Assembly (NCBI GenBank): GCA_016223085.1
Contig: JACRPS010000020.1
Span: 62,001 to 126,000, forward strand
Source of the DNA: Chloroflexota bacterium
GTDB taxonomy: Bacteria > Chloroflexota > Anaerolineae > Aggregatilineales > Phototrophicaceae
Length of the DNA: 64,000 nucleotides
Direction: 5' to 3'
Shown: positions 4,305 to 45,318 of the stretch, one piece after another
Position numbering within the stretch: position 1 is the first letter of the stretch
Layout: every line of letters begins with the position of its first letter
The notes under the pieces: model-generated
What the model saw: the letters and a program-made list of their open reading frames with translations, nothing else
The model's database searches: none
What the model was told of the DNA's origin: nothing
Position numbers and translations under genes: made by a program

Positions 4305-6557
4305 ATGTCCAATCCTAATCTCCTCAACCGTATCCTGCGTGACCGGCTGCCCCTGGCGATTATCCTCGTGGCATTTGTCCTGCTGGCGCTTGTGTACATG
4401 GGGGCGACGCCGCCGCTGGAAGCCAGCGACGAACTGTGGCACGTGGGCATGATTCAGTACATCGCGGAAACGGGTGAACTGCCGGTGCAGGTCGTCGGCG
4501 TGGAGACGATCTACGAGCAGGAAGGCAGCCAACCGCCGCTGTATTATCTGCTGGCCGCCGCGCTGGTGCAGCCGATTGACCGGAGCGATTTTGAAACGCT
4601 GCGCCAGCCGAATCCGCACGTCATTGCCGGCGTGCCGGGCAATGTCGGCAATAAGAATCTCGTGCTGCATGAGACAGCCGCGCCGCTGCGAGGGTCGGTG
4701 CTGGCCGTATACGTCGTGCGGCTGTTCAGCATCGCGCTTGGGTGCGTGACGGTGGTGGCGGTGTATGGGTCGGCACAGGCGCTTGTAGGGACACGATATA
4801 TCGTGTCCCTACGAACGATTCCCATCCTTGCCGCCGGGCTGACGGCGTTTAACCCGATGTTCCTGTTTATCAGCGCGTCGGTCAACAACGATAATCTGGT
4901 GACGGCGCTGAACAGCGTCATCATCTGGCAGATGCTGACGATGGTACGCGACGGTTTCAACTTCCGGCGCAGCCTGCTGATCGCGGTACTGATCGCGTTC
5001 GCGTCGTTGAGCAAACTCAGCGGTCTGGTGCCGGTGCCGGTGGTGGCGCTGGCGGCGCTGTGGCTGGCCTATCGGTCGCGGGACTGGCGCAGGCTGGTGA
5101 CGCTGGGCGCGCTGATGCTGGCGGCGTGGGTGGTGATCGCAGGGTGGTGGTACGTGCGGAACATGCAGCTTTACGGCGATCTGTTCGGCACGCACACGAT
5201 GGCGCTGGTGGCCGGGGCGCGGGAAACGCCGTTCACGCTGCAAACGCTGCTGGACGAATTCCAGGGCTTCCGCTTCGGTTACTGGGGCGTGTTCGGCGCG
5301 TTTAATATCATGACGTTCCGCCCGTATTACGACGTGATGGATGCACTCACCATGCTGGCGCTGGTCGGGCTGGCGCTGCATCTGTGGTGGAATCGCCAGA
5401 GCCAAGATTATATTGTGCGCCTGCTGCTGCCCGGCCTGATTGTTATCATCGGTGCGGTAGCGATCATCAACTGGACGGCGCAAACCTACGCCTCGCAGGG
5501 ACGGCTGCTGTTCCCGTATGTCGCGGCGATCAGCCCGCTGCTGGCGGTGGGGCTGCTCCAAATAACATGGTCGGTAGGGGCGCGGCATGCCGTGCCCCTA
5601 CAAATGATATTTGTGACATTGTTCGCCCTGTTCGCCCTGATCGTGCCGTTTGCCAGCATCGCGCCGCAGTATGCCCCGCCCGTGCCGCTGGAGAAGCTGC
5701 CGGACAGCGCGCGTCCGGTGTATGCGCGTTTTGGCGGCGTGGAACTGATCGGCTACGAAACGCCTGACCGCCGCTATGCGCCGGGGGACAGCGCACCGGT
5801 GACGCTGTACTGGCGCGTTTTGGAACAGTCGGAGCGCGATTTGAGCCTGTGGCTGCACGCGGTGCTGCTGGATGGGACGGTGATCGGGAAGGTGGATAGC
5901 TATCCCGGCGCGGGACGGCTGCGAACGACAACGTGGCAGCCGGGAGCGATTTATGCCGATATGTATGCGATTCCGCTGAATCCCCCACCCCCGGCCTCTC
6001 TCCCCGAGGGAGAGGGGCGAAACAAGTCGCTGACCGCTTCAAAGCTGAGGATACAGGTTGGCTGGTGGCACTACGCCAGCGAAAGCCACGTGCCGCCGAC
6101 GCTGGAAGATGGCGCGCCGCTGGATGTGGTGATGCTGGATGCCGGTGGGTTTGCCGATGGTGTGAGGGTAGTTGTGCCAGCCGAGGCGGTTCCAGCCGAC
6201 GCAGTGTTTGGCGGGCAGATTCGGCTGCTGGCGTACCAGCGCAAGGGGGACAGCCTGACGCTGTACTGGGAAACGCTGGCGCAGCCGAGTGCCGATTACA
6301 CGGTGTTCGCGCAGGTGCTGGACGAGGCCAATACCGTGGTGGGACAGGGCGACGCGCCGCCAGATTTGCCAACGCGCTTCTGGCTGCCGGGCGAACGCTA
6401 CGCCACGCGGCACAGGCTAGTCTACCCTGCGCCGCCCGCGCCGGGGGATTACCGGTTAATGATTGGCTGGTACAACCCGGTAGACAACCGGCGGCTGGAC
6501 ACCGACGCGCCCGACGACGCGCTGCTGCTGGAAACAATCAGCTTACCTTATGGATGA
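4305..6557 (+). CDS. GT-C-type membrane glycosyltransferase-like protein with in-frame palindromes
   Basis: 750 aa with about eleven membrane helices in the first ~440 residues, then a C-terminal soluble region made of two repeats of a YAPGDSAPVTLYWRVLE-like beta domain. The first outer loop carries EASDELWH, matching the acidic motif of PMT/ArnT-type GT-C enzymes that use polyprenyl-phosphate sugars; donor and acceptor are unknown. Two genome palindromes are translated in frame (VGTRYIVSLRT at 4785-4812; VGARHAVPLQ at 5574-5601), and a GC-rich hairpin is read through near residue 560-570. That the frame survives three insertions suggests these loops tolerate change. Confidence 0.8.
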   Translation: MSNPNLLNRILRDRLPLAIILVAFVLLALVYMGATPPLEASDELWHVGMIQYIAETGELPVQVVGVETIYEQEGSQPPLYYLLAAALVQPIDRSDFETLRQPNPHVIAGVPGNVGNKNLVLHETAAPLRGSVLAVYVVRLFSIALGCVTVVAVYGSAQALVGTRYIVSLRTIPILAAGLTAFNPMFLFISASVNNDNLVTALNSVIIWQMLTMVRDGFNFRRSLLIAVLIAFASLSKLSGLVPVPVVALAALWLAYRSRDWRRLVTLGALMLAAWVVIAGWWYVRNMQLYGDLFGTHTMALVAGARETPFTLQTLLDEFQGFRFGYWGVFGAFNIMTFRPYYDVMDALTMLALVGLALHLWWNRQSQDYIVRLLLPGLIVIIGAVAIINWTAQTYASQGRLLFPYVAAISPLLAVGLLQITWSVGARHAVPLQMIFVTLFALFALIVPFASIAPQYAPPVPLEKLPDSARPVYARFGGVELIGYETPDRRYAPGDSAPVTLYWRVLEQSERDLSLWLHAVLLDGTVIGKVDSYPGAGRLRTTTWQPGAIYADMYAIPLNPPPPASLPEGEGRNKSLTASKLRIQVGWWHYASESHVPPTLEDGAPLDVVMLDAGGFADGVRVVVPAEAVPADAVFGGQIRLLAYQRKGDSLTLYWETLAQPSADYTVFAQVLDEANTVVGQGDAPPDLPTRFWLPGERYATRHRLVYPAPPAPGDYRLMIGWYNPVDNRRLDTDAPDDALLLETISLPYG
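4785..4812. repeat. 28-bp perfect palindrome inside a CDS
   Basis: GTAGGGACACGATA followed directly by its exact reverse complement. It is read in frame as VGTRYIVSLRT within the membrane glycosyltransferase. Identical copies lie at 14708-14735 and 16592-16619. Confidence 0.9.
5574..5601. repeat. 28-bp palindrome inside a CDS
   Basis: GTAGGGGCGCGGCA / TGCCGTGCCCCTAC, one mismatch from a perfect palindrome. Read in frame as VGARHAVPLQ in the same gene as the copy at 4785. Confidence 0.88.
5981..6020. repeat. GC-rich hairpin repeat inside a CDS
   Basis: CCCCCACCCCCGGCCTC then CTCTCCCCGAGGGAGAG. It encodes a low-complexity NPPPPASLPEGEGRN linker in the glycosyltransferase. The same family recurs at 9961, 11783, 20377 and 55338. 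Confidence 0.6.
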
Positions 6558-13171: not shown

Positions 13172-13659
13172 GCTGGATACAGCTCTCGCCAAATCGCCGT
13201 TAATTCCCGGTGAATGTTGTCGAGCGTATCGGGAATGACGCGCGTGTGGCCGATGGTTGTCATGAAGCTGGCGTCGCCCGGCCAGCGCGGAACAACGTGC
13301 AGGTGGTAATGTTCCGCCACGCCCGCGCCCGCCGCTGCGCCCAGGTTCGCACCCAGATTAAACGCGGGCGGATTGTACAACCGGCGCAGCGCGGCCAGCG
13401 CACGATTGGTTGTCACCATCTGGTCGGTCAGCGTTTCGACAGGTAAATCTTCCGGCGAGGCGACGTGCTGGTAGGGAATCACCATCAGGTGGCCGTTGTT
13501 GTACGGATACTTGTTGAGCGTGACGTAGACGTGTTCTGACCGGGCGATCAGCAGGTTGTCCGCTTCGTGCTGCGCCAGATTGCAGAAAATACAGCCGTCT
13601 GCCGGCTTTTTTTCGCCGCGAATGTAGGCCATACGCCAGGGAGTCCACAGGTGTTCCAT
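13168..13659 (-). CDS. HIT-family hydrolase/phosphorylase
   Basis: 163 aa. The histidine triad EHYHLHVVPRW and the GGHLMVIP-like region (NGHLMVIPYQH) identify a HIT protein of the Ap4A hydrolase/phosphorylase-like branch; an N-terminal GCIFCN pair probably binds zinc. It acts on dinucleoside polyphosphates or adenylylated compounds in the cytoplasm. The start is set at ATG 13659 because the conserved EHLWTPWRMAYI begins there; the frame runs further upstream without family similarity. The stop codon lies inside the palindrome at 13142-13171, so the original C-terminus may have been altered by that insertion. Confidence 0.9.
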   Translation of the reverse strand: MEHLWTPWRMAYIRGEKKPADGCIFCNLAQHEADNLLIARSEHVYVTLNKYPYNNGHLMVIPYQHVASPEDLPVETLTDQMVTTNRALAALRRLYNPPAFNLGANLGAAAGAGVAEHYHLHVVPRWPGDASFMTTIGHTRVIPDTLDNIHRELTAIWRELYPA

Positions 13660-13696
13660 TGCGCGTTTTGTTCCAAAAAGAACAACTACAACGCCG

Positions 13697-13725
13697 ATTA
13701 TAAAGAGGCAGGGCGTGGGAAACAA
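13697..13725 (-). promoter_or_regulatory. Predicted sigma-70 promoter of the HIT gene
   Basis: On the minus strand, -35 TTGTTT (13725-13720), a 17-bp spacer, then a consensus -10 TATAAT (13702-13697). Transcription would start about 30 bases before ATG 13659. Confidence 0.55.
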
Positions 13726-13803
13726 GTCAGGAAGGGACGGCGGGCGTGTGATACAATGGCGTGCGAAGTTTTGCCGCAGGTTTTGAAGGCTTGTTCGTAA
13801 ATT

Positions 13804-13925
13804 CGCCACCGGACGCTGGAAGCCGTCCGGCTGAAGGAAAAAGCCACCTGGAAGGTGGCTGGAAAGACGAATGAGCCATGCTTTAGCCTGCTGGAAGCCG
13901 GCTTACCGAGGGTAATTCAGCCAGG
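13804..13925. repeat. Dispersed hairpin repeat, copy 2
   Basis: Holds a perfect stem AGCCACCT-GGA-AGGTGGCT (13842-13860) preceded by a GGACGCTGGAAGCCGTCC hairpin and followed by GCCTGCTGGAAGCCGGC. Closest to the copy at 25518. It fills the gap between the HIT promoter and the biotin ligase gene. Confidence 0.75.
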
Positions 13926-13948
13926 GGCACGGCGCGCCGCGCCCCGAC
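13922..13948. repeat. Degenerate palindrome before the biotin ligase start
   Basis: CAGGGGCACGGCG/CGCCGCGCCCCGAC, a weathered member of the GTAGGGGC family. It ends 1 bp before ATG 13950 and would fold over the ribosome-binding region of that gene. Confidence 0.6.
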
Positions 13949-13949
13949 A

Positions 13950-14705
13950 ATGGATGATCGAATGACGGAACTCTCTGCCGAAACCGTGCAGCGCCGGCTT
14001 GCACCCCGCGCAGTACGGTATTACGACCGCGTGGACAGCACCAACGACGTGGCGCTGGAGTGGCTGCGCACGGGCGCGGCGGCGGGGTCGGCGGTGATTG
14101 CCGACGAGCAGATGAAAGGGCGCGGGCGGCTGGGGCGGACGTGGCACACGCCGCCGGGGGTGGCGCTGGCCGTGTCGGTTGTGCTGCGACCGGAAGCGGC
14201 GCAGGTCGCACAGGTAACGATGCTGGGCGCGCTGGCGATTTATGATCTGCTGGAAGGAACAGGTCTGAACGACCTGGGTATCAAGTGGCCGAACGACGTG
14301 CAGGTGAAGGCGCGCAAAATCTGCGGCGTGCTGCCAGAAGCGGCCTGGGACGGTGACCGGTTGCTGGGCGTGGCGCTGGGCATGGGTGTCAATGTGCGGA
14401 TGGATTTTACAGGCACAGAACTGGAGGACACCGCCATCAGCCTCGAACCGGCGCTGGGACGGTGGGTAAACCGGCTCGATTTGCTGGAGTCGCTCCTGGA
14501 CCGGGTGGATTTCTGGTACGCGCGGCTGGGAACGACGGCATTGTTCGAGGTGTGGAAAAGCCGCCTGACGACGCTGGGGCGCGTGGTCACGATTGAGAAC
14601 GTGCGCGGCGTGGCGGAAAACGTGGATGCGGACGGCGCGCTGCTGGTGCGCGACGACGCGGGCACGCTTCGTCGCCTGCTGGCCGGGGATGTGGCATTTG
14701 GATGA
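13950..14705 (+). CDS. birA: Biotin-[acetyl-CoA carboxylase] ligase
   Basis: 251 aa. Activates biotin with ATP and transfers it to the biotin carboxyl carrier protein. The biotinyl-AMP loop GRGRLGRTW and the KWPNDV motif are intact, followed by the GVALGMGVNV strand and a short C-terminal domain. There is no N-terminal winged helix, so this is the class I ligase without repressor function, unlike E. coli BirA. ATG 13950 or ATG 13962 could be the start; no convincing ribosome site is seen because a palindrome abuts the gene. Confidence 0.9.
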   Translation: MDDRMTELSAETVQRRLAPRAVRYYDRVDSTNDVALEWLRTGAAAGSAVIADEQMKGRGRLGRTWHTPPGVALAVSVVLRPEAAQVAQVTMLGALAIYDLLEGTGLNDLGIKWPNDVQVKARKICGVLPEAAWDGDRLLGVALGMGVNVRMDFTGTELEDTAISLEPALGRWVNRLDLLESLLDRVDFWYARLGTTALFEVWKSRLTTLGRVVTIENVRGVAENVDADGALLVRDDAGTLRRLLAGDVAFG

Positions 14706-38045: not shown

Positions 38046-38598
38046 AAACCTAAAACTTCCTGTGCAGGAAACCGGATAAAATCATGTCACGTGAGAATAC
38101 CGACCGGACCGTATGATAACTTTTCAGCATGTTCTGTGTGCTTCGTCCGATCAAGCTCTTGACGATCTGAAATCCTCCCCGTCAGCAGGGAGGGAGAAAG
38201 ACGGGATTTGCCGGGCAGAAGGGTAACGACTTGCCGGATGAAGCATTTGTATGAAGTTTAGTTTTTTGGAGGGATAGATTGCAATATAAAGGGGTTACAA
38301 ATCCGAGACAGTCTGTGACAGTTCTGTGAGAATACCTCAATTGGGGGCTGTTTGTCACTGCGACCCCTGATAGGAAATTTCTGCTGTGACTCGTGCCGTT
38401 TAGACGGCAAACACCCAAAACACAACAAATCCCGACAGACTAATCTGCTAAAGAACCAACCAATTCCTTTTTTTAACACATGGGAAAGTTTCCTAACTTT
38501 CTCCGGGATATTTTCCCAACCAGAACATGATCCCATCTCATGACAACAGGACTGTTCGTTGTGTACGGTAGAGAAGTCGCAAACGAGCAGGAAGGAAG
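38046..38598. other. Divergent intergenic region mrpA / cupredoxin
   Basis: 553 bp without a credible gene. It holds copy A of the ~218-bp repeat (38137-38355) and then AT-richer sequence leading to the cupredoxin ribosome site. Promoters for both operons should lie here, but no convincing -35/-10 pair was found. The minus-strand frame at 38258-38653 has no coding features. Confidence 0.6.
38137..38355. repeat. ~218-bp long repeat, copy A
   Basis: Begins GTGCTTCGTCCGATCAAGC and ends GGGGGCTGTTTGT. It aligns along its whole length with 45449-45667 in the same orientation, roughly 75% identical by eye. Shared landmarks are GACGATCYGAAA, a CCTCCC/GGGAGG hairpin, ACGACTTGCCGG, GGTTACAAATCCG and CAGTTCYGTGAGA. 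It could be a structured RNA, a regulatory region or an element end. Confidence 0.75.
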
Positions 38599-39648
38599 AT
38601 GGGTATGTCAGGTATGTGGAGTAACGTTCGAACACGATTGGGCTGGTTGGCAATCGGCAGCGCCCTGTTTAGTGGTATGATTGCAGGCATCTTTATCCCC
38701 CAGGTTACGGCTCAGGCGCAGGATGCAGAACCGCAAACCTATACGGTGCTCGCCGGAGGGGCTGACGTATTCAACACGGCGGTTCTGGCTTTCGCGCCGC
38801 AATCGCTGAAAGTTCACCGGGGTGATACGGTTCAATGGCTGATTTCCGGCTTCCACAACATCCATTTTGCGGAGACGCCGACCGAACTCATTATCGCGCC
38901 GGAAGTGAACGGCCAGCCACTCCCTCAGATGAATCCAGCCGTTGCCTTCCCCAATATCGAAAATGGTGGTGTCTTCCAGGGTGGCGACGCCAACAGCGGG
39001 ATTGGGCTTGATCCGACAAACCCTACGGTGACTTTTTCGCTGGTGATGGATGTCGAACCGGGGACATACACCTACGTTTGTGATATTCATCCCGGGATGG
39101 TGGCTACGATTACCGTCGTAGATGATGCGACTGCCATCCCCGCGCCTGCTGAAGTACTGGCTACCGGGGCGGCTGAGCAGGCTATGAATGCGGGTACGGG
39201 CGTACAGGCAGCGGTGAAAGCGGCGATGCAGCCTCCGTCTGGCGCTGAAAATGGTGAGCAACAGGTCAAGGCGGGTCTACAGCCCGGCGTGGCAGCCGTG
39301 CTCCAGTTCTTCCCTTCGATTTCGGTTATCGAGGCCGGGCAGAGCGTCACCTGGAGCGTTCCTCCTGGTATGGAACCGCATACCGTTACCTGGCCGCCAC
39401 CGCCTCCCGGTTCAGATTTTACGTTGATTCCGCAGGATGCAGGAAATCCTATCCTGGCGCTGGGGGAAGCCGCGTTCCCATCGGCAGAAAGCGGCGCAGA
39501 GATCGGAACGGGTGACAATTTTAACAGCGGAATCATGATGCCCGGCCAGAGCTACACACTCAAGTTCACTGAACCCGGCGTCTACAACTATATCTGTTTC
39601 CTCCATCCCGGAATGCAAGGTGCTGTCGTCGTGATGCCCTCGTCGTAA
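38599..39648 (+). CDS. Two-domain cupredoxin (plastocyanin-like copper protein)
   Basis: 349 aa. A signal peptide (about 1-40, ending VTAQAQ) exports it. Two cupredoxin folds follow, each with a type-1 copper site: domain 1 His86 or His89 (FHNIHF) with Cys161-His164-Met167 (CDIHPGM), and domain 2 His261 with Cys333-His336-Met339 (CFLHPGM). Both sites look complete, so it may carry electrons or hold copper outside the cell. GGAAGG lies before the ATG. First gene of a seven-gene operon ending in a sensor kinase and regulator. Domain 1 and domain 2 are clearly related, probably by internal duplication. Confidence 0.92.
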   Translation: MGMSGMWSNVRTRLGWLAIGSALFSGMIAGIFIPQVTAQAQDAEPQTYTVLAGGADVFNTAVLAFAPQSLKVHRGDTVQWLISGFHNIHFAETPTELIIAPEVNGQPLPQMNPAVAFPNIENGGVFQGGDANSGIGLDPTNPTVTFSLVMDVEPGTYTYVCDIHPGMVATITVVDDATAIPAPAEVLATGAAEQAMNAGTGVQAAVKAAMQPPSGAENGEQQVKAGLQPGVAAVLQFFPSISVIEAGQSVTWSVPPGMEPHTVTWPPPPPGSDFTLIPQDAGNPILALGEAAFPSAESGAEIGTGDNFNSGIMMPGQSYTLKFTEPGVYNYICFLHPGMQGAVVVMPSS

Positions 39649-39681
39649 GCGCCGGTATTACCCAACAGACAGGGTGGGGCT

Positions 39682-40788
39682 ATGGCCGGTTTCAGTCCCA
39701 CCCTGGAGACGGGCATGAAGCGGAACACGAGCACCAGGAAGGGCAAGACCTGGAATGTATCGGCCAGATTCTACGATAGTGGCGAGGGTATGATGAACAG
39801 GATTTTTATCTCGACCAACGGCAGCAGGCTGGCACGAGCGGAGTGTGGCACAAACAGTCAGTGGTCAGTCGAATTCCTGCTTGAAGGCGAGAAGGTGCGC
39901 TGCCTTGCAGCAGACCCGCACAACGCGAATGTGGTCTATGCCGGGACGCAGGGAAACGGCGTGGTTCGATCTGAAGACCGGGGCAAATCTTGGCAACGCT
40001 CCGGGATGGAGGGGCACATCGTCAAATCCATTGCCGTCAGTTACAGTGAACCCGGCACCGTCTACGCCGGGACGCGGCCTGCGCTGATCTTCGTTTCGCG
40101 CGATAGCGGCGCGCACTGGGAAGAACTCAGCACGTTCCGGCGCATCTTTTCGCGGCGCTTCTGGTTTTCACCCGCCGAGCCGCCATTCATCGGCTATGTG
40201 CAGGGCATCGCGCTCTCGCCCACCGACCCCAACGTAATCCTGGCTGGAATCGAGTTTGGCGCGGTGGTTCGCAGCACGGACAAAGGCAAAACCTGGCAGG
40301 GGCACCGCAAGGGGGCGCTGCGGGACTGCCACTCGATCACGTTCCACGCCACCAACGGCGATTGGGTCTACGAAGGTGGTGGAACGGGCGCTGGAGTTGC
40401 GTTCAGCCGCGACGCCGGAAACACCTGGACGCAGGCCAAGCAGGGTCTTGATCGCCACTACGGCTGGGCAGCCGCCGCAGACCCGGCGCGCCCGGAGGTG
40501 ATGTATGTCTCGGTGTCGCCCGGCCCGATGAAGGCACACAGCGCAGACAATGCCCAAGCGTCCATTTTCCGCTCGATGGGCGGCAGCACATGGGAAAAGC
40601 TGAACGGCGGCCTGCCGCAGCCCTTAAACCACATGCCCTACGCGCTGCTCACCGACCGCAACACACCGGGTCATCTTTATGCCGGTTTGAGCAACGGCGA
40701 TGTCTGGCATACGGCGGATTACGGCGATCACTGGCAGCAGCTTCCCTTGAATCTCGGAAATATCTGGACAGCGATGATTATGCTTTGA
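39682..40788 (+). CDS. Asp-box/BNR beta-propeller protein
   Basis: Up to 368 aa. Five or six Asp-box repeats (RSEDRGKSWQ, VSRDSGAHWEE, RSTDKGKTWQG, FSRDAGNTWTQ, FRSMGGSTWEK, TADYGDHWQQ) define a sialidase-like or VPS10-like propeller. The catalytic residues of sialidases (Arg triad, Tyr/Glu) are not evident, so a binding or sensing role is more likely. No signal peptide is seen. The start is uncertain: ATG 39682 is 33 bp after the cupredoxin stop, while ATG 39790/39793 follow a GAGGG that is too close. It lies in the cupredoxin operon. Confidence 0.82.
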   Translation: MAGFSPTLETGMKRNTSTRKGKTWNVSARFYDSGEGMMNRIFISTNGSRLARAECGTNSQWSVEFLLEGEKVRCLAADPHNANVVYAGTQGNGVVRSEDRGKSWQRSGMEGHIVKSIAVSYSEPGTVYAGTRPALIFVSRDSGAHWEELSTFRRIFSRRFWFSPAEPPFIGYVQGIALSPTDPNVILAGIEFGAVVRSTDKGKTWQGHRKGALRDCHSITFHATNGDWVYEGGGTGAGVAFSRDAGNTWTQAKQGLDRHYGWAAAADPARPEVMYVSVSPGPMKAHSADNAQASIFRSMGGSTWEKLNGGLPQPLNHMPYALLTDRNTPGHLYAGLSNGDVWHTADYGDHWQQLPLNLGNIWTAMIML

Positions 40789-40804
40789 TGGATAGGAGGA
40801 CAGG

Positions 40805-41224
40805 ATGGAGTCGAGAGAACGATTCTCCCGCTATGCTTATGCCGCCGTCGCGTGGCTCTTTGTGGCCGGGATTTTGATGCAGGTATTTCTGATTGGGTTG
40901 ACCTTTTTAGGCGGACGCCCGAGCCTGCAAACCCACGCCGGGTTGGGTCATGGTTTAGCAATCGCACCGCTGCTGATGGTTGTTCTGGCTTACACAGGCC
41001 GATTGCCTAGCCCGATGAAACCGTTTACGTGGCTCGCCCTTGTTGTCTATGTTCTGCTGGCGGATGTCGTCATTTTCTTGCGAGGGTCAGCGCCAATCAT
41101 CGCTGCATTGCATCCGGTGCTGGCGGTGCTGCTCTTCGGCGTTGCCGGATTTCTGGCGGTGCGCGCATGGCGACTGGTGCGCGAGGTACGGACAGCAGTT
41201 CTGGTGAAGTCTCCCGCTGTATAG
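40805..41224 (+). CDS. Four-helix membrane protein, DUF6220-like
   Basis: 139 aa with four membrane helices and His residues near membrane faces (QTHAGLGHGLAIAPLL, AALHPVLAV), resembling DUF6220 proteins of unknown function. The paired histidines could bind heme or copper, but this is conjecture. GGAGGACAGG lies just before the ATG, and the gene starts 16 bp after the propeller gene. Confidence 0.8.
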   Translation: MESRERFSRYAYAAVAWLFVAGILMQVFLIGLTFLGGRPSLQTHAGLGHGLAIAPLLMVVLAYTGRLPSPMKPFTWLALVVYVLLADVVIFLRGSAPIIAALHPVLAVLLFGVAGFLAVRAWRLVREVRTAVLVKSPAV

Positions 41225-41260
41225 TCAAGGAAATTCATCGGTTATCACAGGAGGAAAAAT

Positions 41261-41800
41261 ATGGCTCAATCAGGCAGCGAAATCCTGAACTCGCGTACCG
41301 GGCAGCGTACCATCTTTCTCCGAACCGCCGCCGATACCGGTGGTGCTTACCTTCGCACCGAAACCTTCCATCCACCGCACCAACCCGCAGAACCGGAGCA
41401 TGTACATCCGTTCCAGGAGAGTCGCTGCGAGGTGCTGTCTGGAAAACTGCACTTTTGTATCGCTGGTAACGAGCGGATAGTGGGACCCGGCCAGGCAGTA
41501 GACATTCCCCGTAACGTTCCGCATTACTTCTGGAATGACAGCGACGAAGAGGTGCACGCCATTCAGGAATTTCGCCCGGCGCTCAAGATCGAAGACTTCT
41601 TCGATACCTACTTTGCTCTCGCCAGGGCAGGAAAACTCAATGAGAAGGGAATACCTGCCAATGTATTCCATATGGCCGTTTTGATACGGGAGTACGATCA
41701 GGTCATGCGGGTGACGAAGCCACCACGTCCTGTGCAACTGCTGCTGATGGGGCTTGCGCCTTTCGGACGACTCCTGGGTTATCAGGGGACTTTTCGGTAA
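41261..41800 (+). CDS. Cupin-domain protein
   Basis: 179 aa. A single cupin barrel: metal-site motif EHVHPFQESRCEVLSG in the first half and PRNVPHYFWNDSDEEVHAIQEF in the second, giving a typical 2-His/Glu plus His metal site. The C-terminal helix region ends in a hydrophobic LLLMGLAPFGRLLGY stretch. Enzyme or sensor role unknown. GGAGG lies 9 bp before the ATG; it sits in the middle of the cupredoxin operon. Confidence 0.85.
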   Translation: MAQSGSEILNSRTGQRTIFLRTAADTGGAYLRTETFHPPHQPAEPEHVHPFQESRCEVLSGKLHFCIAGNERIVGPGQAVDIPRNVPHYFWNDSDEEVHAIQEFRPALKIEDFFDTYFALARAGKLNEKGIPANVFHMAVLIREYDQVMRVTKPPRPVQLLLMGLAPFGRLLGYQGTFR

Positions 41801-41817
41801 CGTAGAGGAGAAGCAGC

Positions 41818-42459
41818 ATGAGAACCTGGACCATGTCCCGGAACGGCGCTATCACACTCACGGCCATTATCGCTATTGGCATTGGTCTGGTAATCCTGAG
41901 TGGAATGGTTAACCAGGGTTTATCAGAACGTACCGCCGCAGGTAGCCTGCTTGCTCTGAGTTTTGTTGTGTTTGGGTTTGGCGGCATGCTCTACTTCGGT
42001 AGAGCAATCTCAAAGTGGCAAATCGAGGAGGCTTCTCATCTGATCTGGGAACGAGGTTTTGTCGTCGCGGCGGTTCTGGCAACCGTGCTGGGGCTAGTGC
42101 TGCTGGACGATATGCTGCACGCTGCCGGAGATTCGATCTTCGCGCGGTTGGGCATGGCGGCTTATTTTTTCGGCGCGGTGGTTGTAGTGGCAGCCGAAAC
42201 TGCGTATCTTGGCAAGCGTGATTGGCTCAATCCTCAGATTGTGCTGTATGTCATCATGGCTTTCCTGGCTCAGGCGTCTTTTGGTGTATCGCTTCTGCAA
42301 ACCGGACTGGTGGCAGGCTGGGTAGGATGGGTGACGATCATCTGGAATCTGGGCTGGTTACTGGTCATGCTCATCGTTCGCCCGCGTGACATCTACTATC
42401 CCGTACTTCATCATGTCGCGCCGCTCATCATTGGAATTGCGCTGCTGACTCAGCGGTAG
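41818..42459 (+). CDS. Polytopic membrane protein, unknown family
   Basis: 213 aa with about seven predicted helices and short loops. His and Asp occur near helix ends (DDMLHAAGD, LHHVAPLII). No family was recognised; it looks like a small integral membrane sensor or redox partner. AGAGGAGAAGC precedes the ATG and it starts 17 bp after the cupin stop, clearly within the same operon, 82 bp before the sensor kinase. Confidence 0.75.
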   Translation: MRTWTMSRNGAITLTAIIAIGIGLVILSGMVNQGLSERTAAGSLLALSFVVFGFGGMLYFGRAISKWQIEEASHLIWERGFVVAAVLATVLGLVLLDDMLHAAGDSIFARLGMAAYFFGAVVVVAAETAYLGKRDWLNPQIVLYVIMAFLAQASFGVSLLQTGLVAGWVGWVTIIWNLGWLLVMLIVRPRDIYYPVLHHVAPLIIGIALLTQR

Positions 42460-42541
42460 GCAGCACCGGCGCGCAATCAACCGGCGCTTCATGATACTAT
42501 TAGCACAAGCATGAGTGCGACAAGTTCAGGGTGAAAAAGCC

Positions 42542-44659
42542 ATGAGCGAAAAAACTGCCCAGCGGCTGTCCTGGTCAATCGCTGTGTTCTCCGTTCTATT
42601 GGTCATAACCGGGCTGGTCATCAGCATCCTTGCGCTGGTAGTCAGTGGACGCGGCGTGACCTTCAGCCACCAGTTCTTCACACCCGTGCTGACGCTCACC
42701 TATGGCGTGGTCGGGGCGCTGGTCGCGTCGCGTCACCCACGTAATCCGATAGGCTGGATATTCAGCGCCATCGGGTTTCTCAGCGCGCTGAATATGCTAT
42801 CGGCGGGATACGCTTCGTACGACAAACTTGTCCTGATGAACGTGTCACTGCCGGGGACAGTAATGGTCGGTTGGTTAAGTACCTGGATATGGATTCCGAA
42901 CGCGCTGCTGCCCATAACGTTTACCCTGCTCCTGTTCCCGGACGGAAAACTCCTGTCCACGCGCTGGCGTCCGGTCGCCTGGGCAGCAGGGTTGGGCATC
43001 GCCGTATACACCTTCAGCATGGCTATTTATCCTGACTCGCTGGAGGGGATGAGGTTTATAGGATTCCATCCCTTTGGAATTGAGGACCCTGCGGACTTCA
43101 GGAACGCACTGATGACAGTTGCTGCCCCGCTGCTTCTGTTAGGTATATTCGGCTCAATCGCCTCCATCGTCGTTCGTTTTCGTAAAGCTGCCGGGATAGA
43201 ACGCGCTCAATTAAAGTGGCTGACAATCGCGGGAGTCATCGTGGTTGCGGGTAATATTCTGGGTGCTATCCCTTGGTTGATCTGGGGGGATAGTCCGATA
43301 ACCCAGGAGTTGTGGATTGTTATTATTGACATTACGCTTGTTAACATTGTCATCGCTACTGGGTTTGCAATCCTGCGCTACCAGCTATGGGACATTCACA
43401 TTCTCGTTAATCGCACGCTGGTCTACGGGTCGCTGACAGCCCTCGTTGTTGTCCTCTATGTTGTCATCGTCGGTGCATTGGGGATGTTGCTTCAGACAGG
43501 CGGCAGTCTGCCGATTTCGCTCTTTGGAACGGGCATCGTCGCCATCTCGTTTCAACCACTGCGGGAGCGCTTACAACGCGGCGTGAACCGGCTGATGTAC
43601 GGTGAACGCGACGATCCATACGCCGTGTTAGGTCGGCTCTCCGAACGCCTCGAAGTCGTAGTCGCGTCGCAATCGGTTCTCCCGACGATTGTGGAAACCG
43701 TTGCCGAAGCCCTCAAGCTGCCCTATGCAGCTATCGCTCTGAAGGATGGTGATTACTTTAAGGTGGTCGCAGAATACACACGCAGTTCTGGATATAACCA
43801 TGTACTCGCAGATGAAACGGAAACCCTCCCACTGGTTTATCAGACAGAACCCATCGGTCAGATGATTCTTGCGCCGCGCACGCTAGGTGAATCGTTCTCT
43901 CTGACTGACAGGCGACTGTTGGAAACCATCGCGCGGCAGGCGGGAATTGCTGCCTATAATGTGCGTCTGACGCAGGATTTGCAGCGTTCCCGCGAACGGC
44001 TGGTGACAACCCGCGAAGAAGAGCGCCGACGCCTTCGACGTGACCTGCATGATGGGCTTGGCCCGGTGCTGGCCGCGATGTCGTTCAAACTCGATGCAGT
44101 TCATAATCTGGCGGACAGTAATCCAATTGCCATAAAGAAAATGGCTGTGGAACTCAAAACGGAGATGCAGGAGGCGCTGGCGGACATCCGGCGCATCGCC
44201 TATGATCTACGACCACCCGCCCTGGATGAACTTGGATTGGTCGGCGCATTGAAAGAGCATATCGCTTCAAACAATCAGGTGCAGGGGGTGCAAATCACCC
44301 TGGAAGCACCCGAAAGCACACCGCCACTCCCGGCAGCCGTTGAAGTCGCTGCCTATCGTATCGCACTTGAAGCCATGACCAACGTAAGCCGTCATGCTGC
44401 GGCGGAACACTGTTGCGTCCGGCTTTCGCTCTCCGGCGACTTATGTTTGGAAGTCACCGACGATGGACGAGGGCTGCCCAATGTTATTCGGGCAGGCGTG
44501 GGACTGACCTCGATGCGGGAGCGCGCCGAGGAATTAGGGGGAACGTGTATCACTGAAGCGCTGCCGCATGGGGGAACAGGGGTGATGGCCCGTCTACCTC
44601 TATCATCTGGGCATACCATAGCGACTGAGGGAGTCGAATGGAAACAATCCGGGTATTAA
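42542..44659 (+). CDS. NarL-type sensor histidine kinase (HisKA_3) with membrane input and GAF-like region
   Basis: 705 aa. Seven or eight N-terminal helices (about 10-300) are followed by a GAF-like region (about 365-465, LSERLEVVVASQSVLPTIVETVAEALKL), then the HisKA_3 dimer helix with RRLRRDLHDGLGPVLA and an ATPase domain (EAMTNVSRHA, VTDDGRGLP, GVGLTSMRERAEELGG). Such LiaS/DegS/NarX relatives phosphorylate LuxR-type regulators. ATG 42542 is preferred over the upstream GTG 42515 because AGGGTG precedes it. It overlaps the regulator gene by 22 bp, so they are a cognate pair. Confidence 0.92.
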   Translation: MSEKTAQRLSWSIAVFSVLLVITGLVISILALVVSGRGVTFSHQFFTPVLTLTYGVVGALVASRHPRNPIGWIFSAIGFLSALNMLSAGYASYDKLVLMNVSLPGTVMVGWLSTWIWIPNALLPITFTLLLFPDGKLLSTRWRPVAWAAGLGIAVYTFSMAIYPDSLEGMRFIGFHPFGIEDPADFRNALMTVAAPLLLLGIFGSIASIVVRFRKAAGIERAQLKWLTIAGVIVVAGNILGAIPWLIWGDSPITQELWIVIIDITLVNIVIATGFAILRYQLWDIHILVNRTLVYGSLTALVVVLYVVIVGALGMLLQTGGSLPISLFGTGIVAISFQPLRERLQRGVNRLMYGERDDPYAVLGRLSERLEVVVASQSVLPTIVETVAEALKLPYAAIALKDGDYFKVVAEYTRSSGYNHVLADETETLPLVYQTEPIGQMILAPRTLGESFSLTDRRLLETIARQAGIAAYNVRLTQDLQRSRERLVTTREEERRRLRRDLHDGLGPVLAAMSFKLDAVHNLADSNPIAIKKMAVELKTEMQEALADIRRIAYDLRPPALDELGLVGALKEHIASNNQVQGVQITLEAPESTPPLPAAVEVAAYRIALEAMTNVSRHAAAEHCCVRLSLSGDLCLEVTDDGRGLPNVIRAGVGLTSMRERAEELGGTCITEALPHGGTGVMARLPLSSGHTIATEGVEWKQSGY

Positions 44660-45318
44660 TCGCCGATGACCACACCCTGTTTCGAGACGGCTTGCGGGCG
44701 CTGTTGGCCTCCATCCCGGATATTGAAATCGTGGGCGAGGCAGCTAGTGGCAAGGAAGTACTCAGGCTGGCAAGGGAACTTCAACCCGACGTGATTCTGA
44801 TGGATATTCAAATGCCCGACATCAACGGTATTGAGGCGACACGCCAGATTCTACGTACCAGCCCGCATGTGGGCATCATCGTGCTGACGATGTTCCAGGA
44901 TGATGACTCGGTGTTTGCGGTGATGCGCGCCGGAGCGCGTGGATATGTGTTAAAGGGCGCTGACCAGGCTGTGCTGCTGCGCGCGGTGCGAGCGGTGGCG
45001 AATGGGGAATCGCTGTTCAGTCCTGAAATCGCGGCACGCCTGATGCAGTTCTTTGCCAATCTTCAGCCAGCATCACGACCAGAGCTTTTCCCGGAACTGA
45101 CCGAGCGCGAGCGGGAAATCCTGTCGCTTATCGCCGATGGACAAACCAATGCGGAAATTGCTGAAAAGCTGGTCATCAGCATGAAAACGGTACGTAACTA
45201 TGTATCCAATATTTTCAGCAAGTTGCAGGTTGCCGACCGGGCACAGGCGGCGATTCGAGCGCGTGAAGCCGGATTAGGGAGTATGCAATCTTCGAGCCGT
45301 CCAGATGATAACCGCTAA
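44638..45318 (+). CDS. NarL/FixJ-family response regulator
   Basis: 226 aa. Receiver with ADDH, phospho-acceptor Asp56 (VILMDIQMPD), Thr in LTMFQDD and Lys in VLKGA. The LuxR-type helix-turn-helix is LTEREREILSLIADGQTN with EIAEKLVISMKTVRNYVSNI. It starts inside the kinase gene and is the last gene of the cupredoxin operon, so it may control the same promoter; the paired ~218-bp repeats on either side are candidate targets (inference). Confidence 0.95.
   Translation: METIRVLIADDHTLFRDGLRALLASIPDIEIVGEAASGKEVLRLARELQPDVILMDIQMPDINGIEATRQILRTSPHVGIIVLTMFQDDDSVFAVMRAGARGYVLKGADQAVLLRAVRAVANGESLFSPEIAARLMQFFANLQPASRPELFPELTEREREILSLIADGQTNAEIAEKLVISMKTVRNYVSNIFSKLQVADRAQAAIRAREAGLGSMQSSSRPDDNR

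Follow-up and report, generated by a model that had tools for sequence, protein, structure and literature searches.

A two-component operon with a conserved upstream box and exchangeable redox genes in a Chloroflexota bacterium

Investigating a 64,000-nucleotide stretch (the window) of a 6.0 Mb genome from the family Phototrophicaceae (Chloroflexota, Anaerolineae; contig JACRPS010000020.1, positions 62,001 to 126,000), we analysed a cluster of seven open reading frames (ORFs), here called A to G, which lie on one strand between positions 38599 and 45318. An earlier sequence-only reading had proposed this cluster as an undescribed operon for an extracytoplasmic copper or redox system with a sensing arm of its own. 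The seven genes are indeed found there, and the operon is undescribed among the matches listed in the open-licence literature searched. With the box that precedes them, the genes are:

38526-38572, + strand: candidate promoter/operator box, ending 26 bp before gene A (matrix score, blind test)
38599-39648, + strand: gene A, exchangeable cargo: an exported cupredoxin of two domains, both of the type-1 copper kind (Pfam, copper ligands)
39793-40788, + strand: gene B, Asp-box propeller of the cytosol (ORF open from 39682; start shared with relatives at 39793)
40805-41224, + strand: gene C, DUF6220 protein with four transmembrane (TM) segments, accessory (Pfam)
41261-41800, + strand: gene D, cupin, accessory (Pfam)
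41818-42459, + strand: gene E, helical membrane protein outside any Pfam family, with seven hydrophobic segments; constant companion of F and G in the clade
42542-44659, + strand: gene F, histidine kinase of the HisKA_3 type, polytopic (a GTG at 42515 is an alternative start)
44638-45318, + strand: gene G, NarL-family response regulator (22-base overlap with F)

From A to G the genes are separated by 144, 16, 36, 17 and 82 bp, followed by the overlap of F and G, which corrects the gaps of 16 to 82 bp given earlier for the whole cluster; the start of F most likely is the ATG at 42542. Gene A contains plastocyanin-type domains (PF00127, 61.6 bits, cut-off 21.2) in two stretches, with two complete type-1 copper sites (H86/C161/H164/M167 and H261/C333/H336/M339). 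Scoring above the family cut-off and with all eight ligands present, it is a type-1 copper cupredoxin, and the exported protein with two copper sites was thus correctly recognised. The ligands are complete in 11 of the 12 aligned A proteins (window included), site 2 being lost in L061_10. As in amicyanin and plastocyanin carriers, both domains keep the His-Cys-His-Met set, and the best matches in the Protein Data Bank (PDB) are amicyanins (1sfd, E 1.2e-8); in contrast to these carriers, A unites two domains in one exported protein and remains below the amicyanin equivalog TIGR02657 (54.6 versus a cut-off of 110.2 bits).

Gene B is a BNR/Sortilin-type propeller in the Pfam/NCBIfam scan, with five Asp-box motifs and a propeller fold in its structure model (three sequences, pLDDT 75.6, pTM 0.81). 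The fold had been named correctly from the sequence and the start at 39682 wrongly: the sequence common to B and 10 relatives begins at M38, i.e. at 39793, which is preceded by GAGGG; two of the 10 relatives have their first start codon at the position equivalent to M38, and the others carry short, unconserved extensions. This start widens the gap between A and B from 33 to 144 bp and, because it leaves no signal peptide and no hydrophobic or TM segment, places B in the cytosol. The cupin D (47.9 bits, cut-off 27.2), identified as such before, likewise lacks a signal peptide and a TM segment, and the earlier suggestion that the operon as a whole is extracytoplasmic thus finds no support. The closest solved fold to the B model is that of the BNR protein Reut_B4987 (PDB 3b7f; Z 31.1, 316 residues, rmsd 3.1), which shares only 21% identity with B and to which presumably no function has been assigned; B also falls below the F510_1955 glycosylhydrolase family (NF045728, 83.8 versus 175). 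Four His residues and one Cys (H171, H180, H185, H249, C179) are invariant among 16 B proteins, which suggests a metal or active site, and B is probably a cytosolic enzyme. A B-family propeller (about 60%) also occurs in L054 (96-1885); the gene before it encodes a membrane protein alignable with E over 42 residues only (hhalign E 1.3e-5), and the two are possibly a diverged B-E pair.

Both C and E had been described as unknown membrane proteins, which holds for E; C belongs to DUF6220 (PF19728, 34.9 bits, cut-off 29.8), for which no paper was found in the open-licence literature searched. The Pfam search of E returned no family, the best E-value among 14 E members being 0.037, to unrelated families. 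Its model (four sequences, pLDDT 68.9) gave no Foldseek match at E 0.001 or less, and its best fold match (Z 10.7, rmsd 3.9, 178 residues) is a filament entry, with a receptor and a designed bundle scoring equally, which says little about the fold. Thirteen PDB sequence matches of the E profile (E 0.19-1.2), all to one stretch of one unrelated protein and its constructs, were taken as chance.

Genes F (HisKA_3 and HATPase domains in Pfam) and G (receiver and GerE output, GerE 75.1 bits) form the NarL-type kinase and regulator pair that had been proposed. They share their classes with the nitrate systems NarX/NarL, from which they differ in scoring far below the equivalog cut-offs (F 71.4 versus 578 for NarX and 70.9 versus 553 for NarQ, G 161.6 versus 250 for NarL), and they are not members of these families. 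The arrangement of a small membrane protein followed by a HisKA_3 kinase and a NarL-type regulator also resembles LiaFSR/VraTSR, including presumed autoregulation; the differences are that E carries no recognised LiaF domain and no Pfam family, that F reaches 63.2 against a LiaS cut-off of 450, and that the cargo is redox or enzymatic. By E and F the locus falls outside LiaFSR.

Comparison with 98 genomes of the family revealed a stable core. E matches 13 of them, 12 strongly, the thirteenth (26%, E 9.4e-4) being without the module, and in 11 of the 12 strong-E loci E, F and G keep this order on one strand; no more than a single gene separates E and F (an SRPBCC protein, in four loci). B lies upstream of E-F-G in 10 of these 11, directly or with one or two genes between; the exception is L024, where the contig begins at E and B is found on another contig of the same genome. 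The N-terminal part of F has strong matches in 12 of the 98 genomes, 11 of them shared with E (in the twelfth, G044, the contig starts 477 bases before the match), and in nine loci the distances of E and F as well as of F and G correlate (Mantel p 0.0025 and 0.003). The flanks of the cluster are not shared in this way, which marks the recurrence of E-F-G as more than chance: among flanking ORFs of the window in 28001-55000, only one, another response regulator, clusters with ORFs of the E-F-G loci. C matches seven genomes, five of them strongly. In all five it directly follows B; the gap measures some 500 bases in G022, and in G097 a contig end truncates C. The sequence-only reading had made its case depend on a neighbourhood that is not scattered in relatives: B-E-F-G and C do stay together, and A and D are partly scattered, A matching 18 of the 98 genomes at any strength and D occurring at 60% identity or more in five genomes, three times in the module; the operon of L022 also holds a 43% cupin. 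At 65% identity or more A is found in three genomes, twice in the module and once near a contig end (G038), and A inside a B-E-F-G module is restricted to the window and L020.

Upstream of B, the sister loci carry varying genes in the slot that A occupies in the window. In L020 these are A and SCO1; in seven sister loci of the first set an exported ScyE-type propeller is found, in four of them together with a cytochrome c (by eye a lipoprotein), and the one such propeller tested, that of L022, passes NF033206 (151.2 versus a cut-off of 80). SnoaL, SRPBCC and further genes are found there as well: the box is directly followed by SnoaL in L021, L022, L025, L030 and L053, by a Polyketide_cyc2/SRPBCC gene in L023 and by one resembling SRPBCC in L056; NmrA occurs in L028, and zinc-type dehydrogenases lie near the operons of L021 and L030. 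In the cyanobacterial scytonemin cluster (PMC4870267), a predicted periplasmic propeller of the ScyD/ScyE family is similarly clustered with kinase and regulator genes; the window operon differs in having no ScyE-type propeller, and no other scytonemin gene was noticed in the sister loci, where none was searched for.

Outside the family, the E profile matched eight of 400 genomes of the phylum and a broader profile 12. In the class of G189 and G454, six strong E places were found in five of 47 genomes; a kinase-regulator pair adjoins E in four of the six, a membrane-anchored protein with a cupredoxin-like domain at its end lies on the upstream side of E in three of the five places uncut there (L044, L046, L049), and B does so in two of the five, L044 having a C-like gene (42%) as well. 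This membrane-anchored cupredoxin passes no family cut-off; its assignment rests on a His...Cys-x2-His-x2-Met pattern and on a profile alignment with the second domain of A (E 4.5e-6). It occurs, often as the cupredoxin part alone, in 38 of the 400 genomes, the window's own genome not being among them, and 20 further loci of it contain E in none, a weak B match in one and a different adjoining kinase-regulator pair in three. The latter (L081, L082, L084) belong to another class, and there the cupredoxin directly adjoins that pair. Two loci come from outside the family sample: L018, with E and SnoaL on a contig that ends 260 bases after E and carries a membrane-cupredoxin match 3.8 kb upstream of E (L043), and L019 ('Caldilineaceae'), with the order B-F-G-E. 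Since L043 and L018 represent a single contig (G306:C190), as do L021 and L017, the counts include one member of each pair.

Electron carriers often travel together and sit in the sensor operon in different combinations. This is also seen in ten A loci outside the module: SCO1 adjoins A in six (L032, L058, L059, L062, L063, L068), in four of them (L032, L059, L062, L063) with cytochrome c as well; L060 contains two A genes, two cytochromes and a ScyE-type propeller together; in L061 A adjoins a related kinase and regulator; and in L057 and L067 A occurs without SCO1, cytochrome c, ScyE-type propeller or related kinase and regulator. One of these loci, L032, lies in the window's own genome (G000:C12, 7778-10244) as a second two-domain cupredoxin copy with SCO1 and cytochrome c, with no box site at 9 bits and no F or G match. 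Since a double cupredoxin, a membrane cupredoxin or a cytochrome c share much the same slot, electron transfer rather than copper storage seems to be the common function.

The box was found as sequence shared upstream of A in the window and L020. In the window it spans 47 bp and contains a -35-like ATGACA (38540-38545), an 18-nt spacer and TACGGT (38564-38569); the site scores 40.0 bits, and 30.1 when left out of the matrix, against 16.8 for the best of five shuffles. A matrix from seven seeds gave 15 sites of at least 14 bits, namely the seeds and eight new ones, seven of which precede operons of this type while the eighth (L031, 15.6 bits) does not. Rebuilt from 14 sites, the matrix recovered the same 14 at 17 bits or more in 61 sequences (761 kb), with a best score of 16.8 in five shuffles; 12 of the 14 remain above 16.8 when left out, and all nine family loci of the window clade with their upstream end on the contig possess a site. 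These scans covered the loci other than L001-L017 and L033-L043. For a blind test, a matrix from 12 earlier sites (L030 and L044 left out) was applied to 15 second-tier kinase loci not used in building it: 15 sites of at least 15 bits were found in 11 of the 15 loci, versus three in 20 Markov replicates (best replicate 25.3 bits). Each of these sites lies 1-102 nt before an ORF of at least 60 amino acids, which is a low bar, and most of them, by position, precede genes for exported proteins on the side of the kinase; L101 and L103 each have one site facing away from the kinase, and in L096 and L099 there are several genes in between. In the resulting 27 sites the strongest columns are C-n-CATGACA-n-CGGGA and TAnnnT, with T, A and T invariant. 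A 28-bp palindrome considered within the box was rejected at 48% symmetry, and the box is therefore given by its consensus. In L020 an exact CATGACAACAGG occurs once more at 6356, upstream of the box that precedes gene A.

In the kinase tree the window kinase falls into a clade of 12 (support 100/100), and the second-tier kinases lie outside it, mainly in two further clades of five and seven; several genomes hold more than one kind. The tree comprises 30 of 36 kinases, six lacking the trimming motif (including three intended outgroups) and the truncated L089 kinase being left out, and some long branches make its deeper order unsure. The cargo of the other related kinases, with one protein each tested, includes exported SnoaL, DUF4397/fasciclin, a streptomycin adenylyltransferase-like and an EryCIII-like glycosyltransferase protein.

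We put the probability at roughly 0.55 that E, F and G, usually joined by B, make up an autoregulated signalling cassette that is anchored in the membrane and carries swappable, often periplasmic redox cargo. The sensing arm would consist of the membrane protein E, as a putative co-sensor, and the polytopic kinase F, which may respond to a signal at the envelope; F would phosphorylate G, and G would bind the box at 38526-38572 and activate its promoter, so that the operon induces itself and its cargo. In the window this cargo would comprise A as a periplasmic electron carrier with two copper sites, the cytosolic propeller B, the membrane protein C (DUF6220) and the cupin D. The sensor of the sister loci would be the same and would govern a ScyE-type exported propeller, often with cytochrome c, or a cupredoxin with SCO1, accompanied by SnoaL, SRPBCC and NmrA proteins. 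A may carry electrons between a periplasmic reaction and the respiratory chain, and the whole would likely serve in dealing with redox-active or electrophilic compounds that reach the cell envelope. In general kind the locus is a known one, a two-component operon; it stands out by its unusual membrane partner, the family-wide box and the exchangeable redox cargo.

Several observations weigh against this interpretation. Two of the 14 sites (L030, 14.7 bits; L044, 7.5) drop below the best shuffle (16.8) once they no longer contribute to the matrix; among the loci of the other class, L046 and L047 have no site at 9 bits and L049 reaches only 10.3; and no site was found in four of the 15 blind-test loci (L089, L090, L091, L098), the contig of L089 ending in the kinase gene. 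The distances of E and G do not correlate (Mantel p 0.18), nor do those of B with E, F or G (p 0.08-0.14). L029 has E without the core, L045 and L048 have it without kinase pair, membrane cupredoxin or B, and in L019 E comes after G; three fragmented genomes (G006, G015, G027) hold B but no strong F. The second-tier kinase loci lack E although most of them carry the box, and E thus is dispensable for some such kinases. It should also be noted that the box holds a -35/-10-like promoter and could represent a promoter class rather than an operator of G.

A wider reading, which we advance tentatively and at less than even odds, would see a Chloroflexota kinase-regulator chassis in which at least three paralogous kinase clades share one operator, placed before each captured cargo operon; the window clade would have gained the co-sensor E and the propeller enzyme B and would swap non-homologous periplasmic electron carriers (double cupredoxin, membrane cupredoxin, or cytochrome c with a ScyE propeller) in one slot while the sensor stays constant. 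One box, one kinase-regulator family and a defined cargo make a regulon that can be tested directly, in a phylum for which genetic tools are scarce, and they tie four uncharacterised families (E, B, DUF6220 and the ScyE-type propellers) to one regulated process. If the slot carriers are interchangeable, they would serve as a natural experiment on the requirements of a single electron-transfer step in the periplasm.

Among the alternatives, a general cassette against xenobiotic, electrophile or quinone stress fares best, in which small-molecule enzymes (SnoaL, SRPBCC, cupin, NmrA, propeller) would be the main products and the electron carriers incidental. The SnoaL genes first after the box in five loci, the SRPBCC-type ones in two, NmrA and the nearby zinc-type dehydrogenases agree with it, as do the adenylyltransferase-like and glycosyltransferase-like genes adjoining related kinases; we nevertheless judge it unlikely, as the window operon has, besides the propeller, the cupin alone of that set, and exported electron carriers recur in two classes.

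Less probable still is copper homeostasis in the manner of CopRS/CusRS, with F sensing periplasmic copper, G inducing a cupredoxin as buffer or carrier, and the cupin, DUF6220 protein and E as accessories. The two intact sites of A speak for it, and so do SCO1, a copper-handling family, next to A in L020 and the cupredoxins adjoining related kinases in L044, L046, L049 and L061. However, the seven sister loci with a ScyE-type propeller, four of them with cytochrome c, have no cupredoxin in the slot, neither a copper efflux pump nor a copper oxidase is found among the seven operon genes, and the same box with related kinases precedes unrelated cargo. The copper regulators CusR and CopR moreover are OmpR-type, and G with its GerE output does not belong to them. 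Of the copper or redox system with its own sensor claimed earlier, the kinase-regulator pair and the recurring periplasmic electron carriers (cupredoxin, SCO1, cytochrome c, membrane cupredoxin) stand, whereas copper as the signal is not supported; related kinases with the same box control quite different cargo.

Equally improbable appears a reading in which the box marks promoters served by an alternative sigma factor and the genes, each useful by itself, form no more than a loose patchwork: TAnnnT lies 18 nt after ATGACA in all 27 sites, which were chosen by a matrix including TAnnnT, and the accessory genes vary, but all 14 sites of at least 17 bits, in sequences with many other genes, precede this operon type (the same sites forming the matrix), and the order E-F-G is kept in 11 of 12 loci.

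Further scans of the window yielded little. A role of A to E in anti-phage defence was dismissed, with no PADLOC match at E 0.001, and the PHROGs search of B, C and E gave a single match, of B to one unnamed family. Rfam detected only tRNA between 38000 and 46000. Simple pattern scans stayed near the shuffled background (nine promoters versus 5.0, 11 terminators versus 7.2) and did not return the box.

The window's own genome contains another related kinase-regulator locus with the same box (L064, G000:C13, 3843-13371; 38.5 bits), which encodes a DUF4397/fasciclin protein and an exported protein whose C...HHELGM loop is copper-like; a streptomycin adenylyltransferase-like gene is also present, and a further gene which by eye resembles the EryCIII-like glycosyltransferase of L094. 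The distant kinase of L046 (8228-12072) shows weak extra PDZ matches below cut-off, not seen in the window kinase, and is preceded by a shorter second kinase copy. In L021 the same two-gene pair (229/195 and 99/100 amino acids) is found on both flanks of the operon (4802-5787 and 13568-14454); it resembles a duplicated piece of a mobile element and may bear on how the cassette moves.

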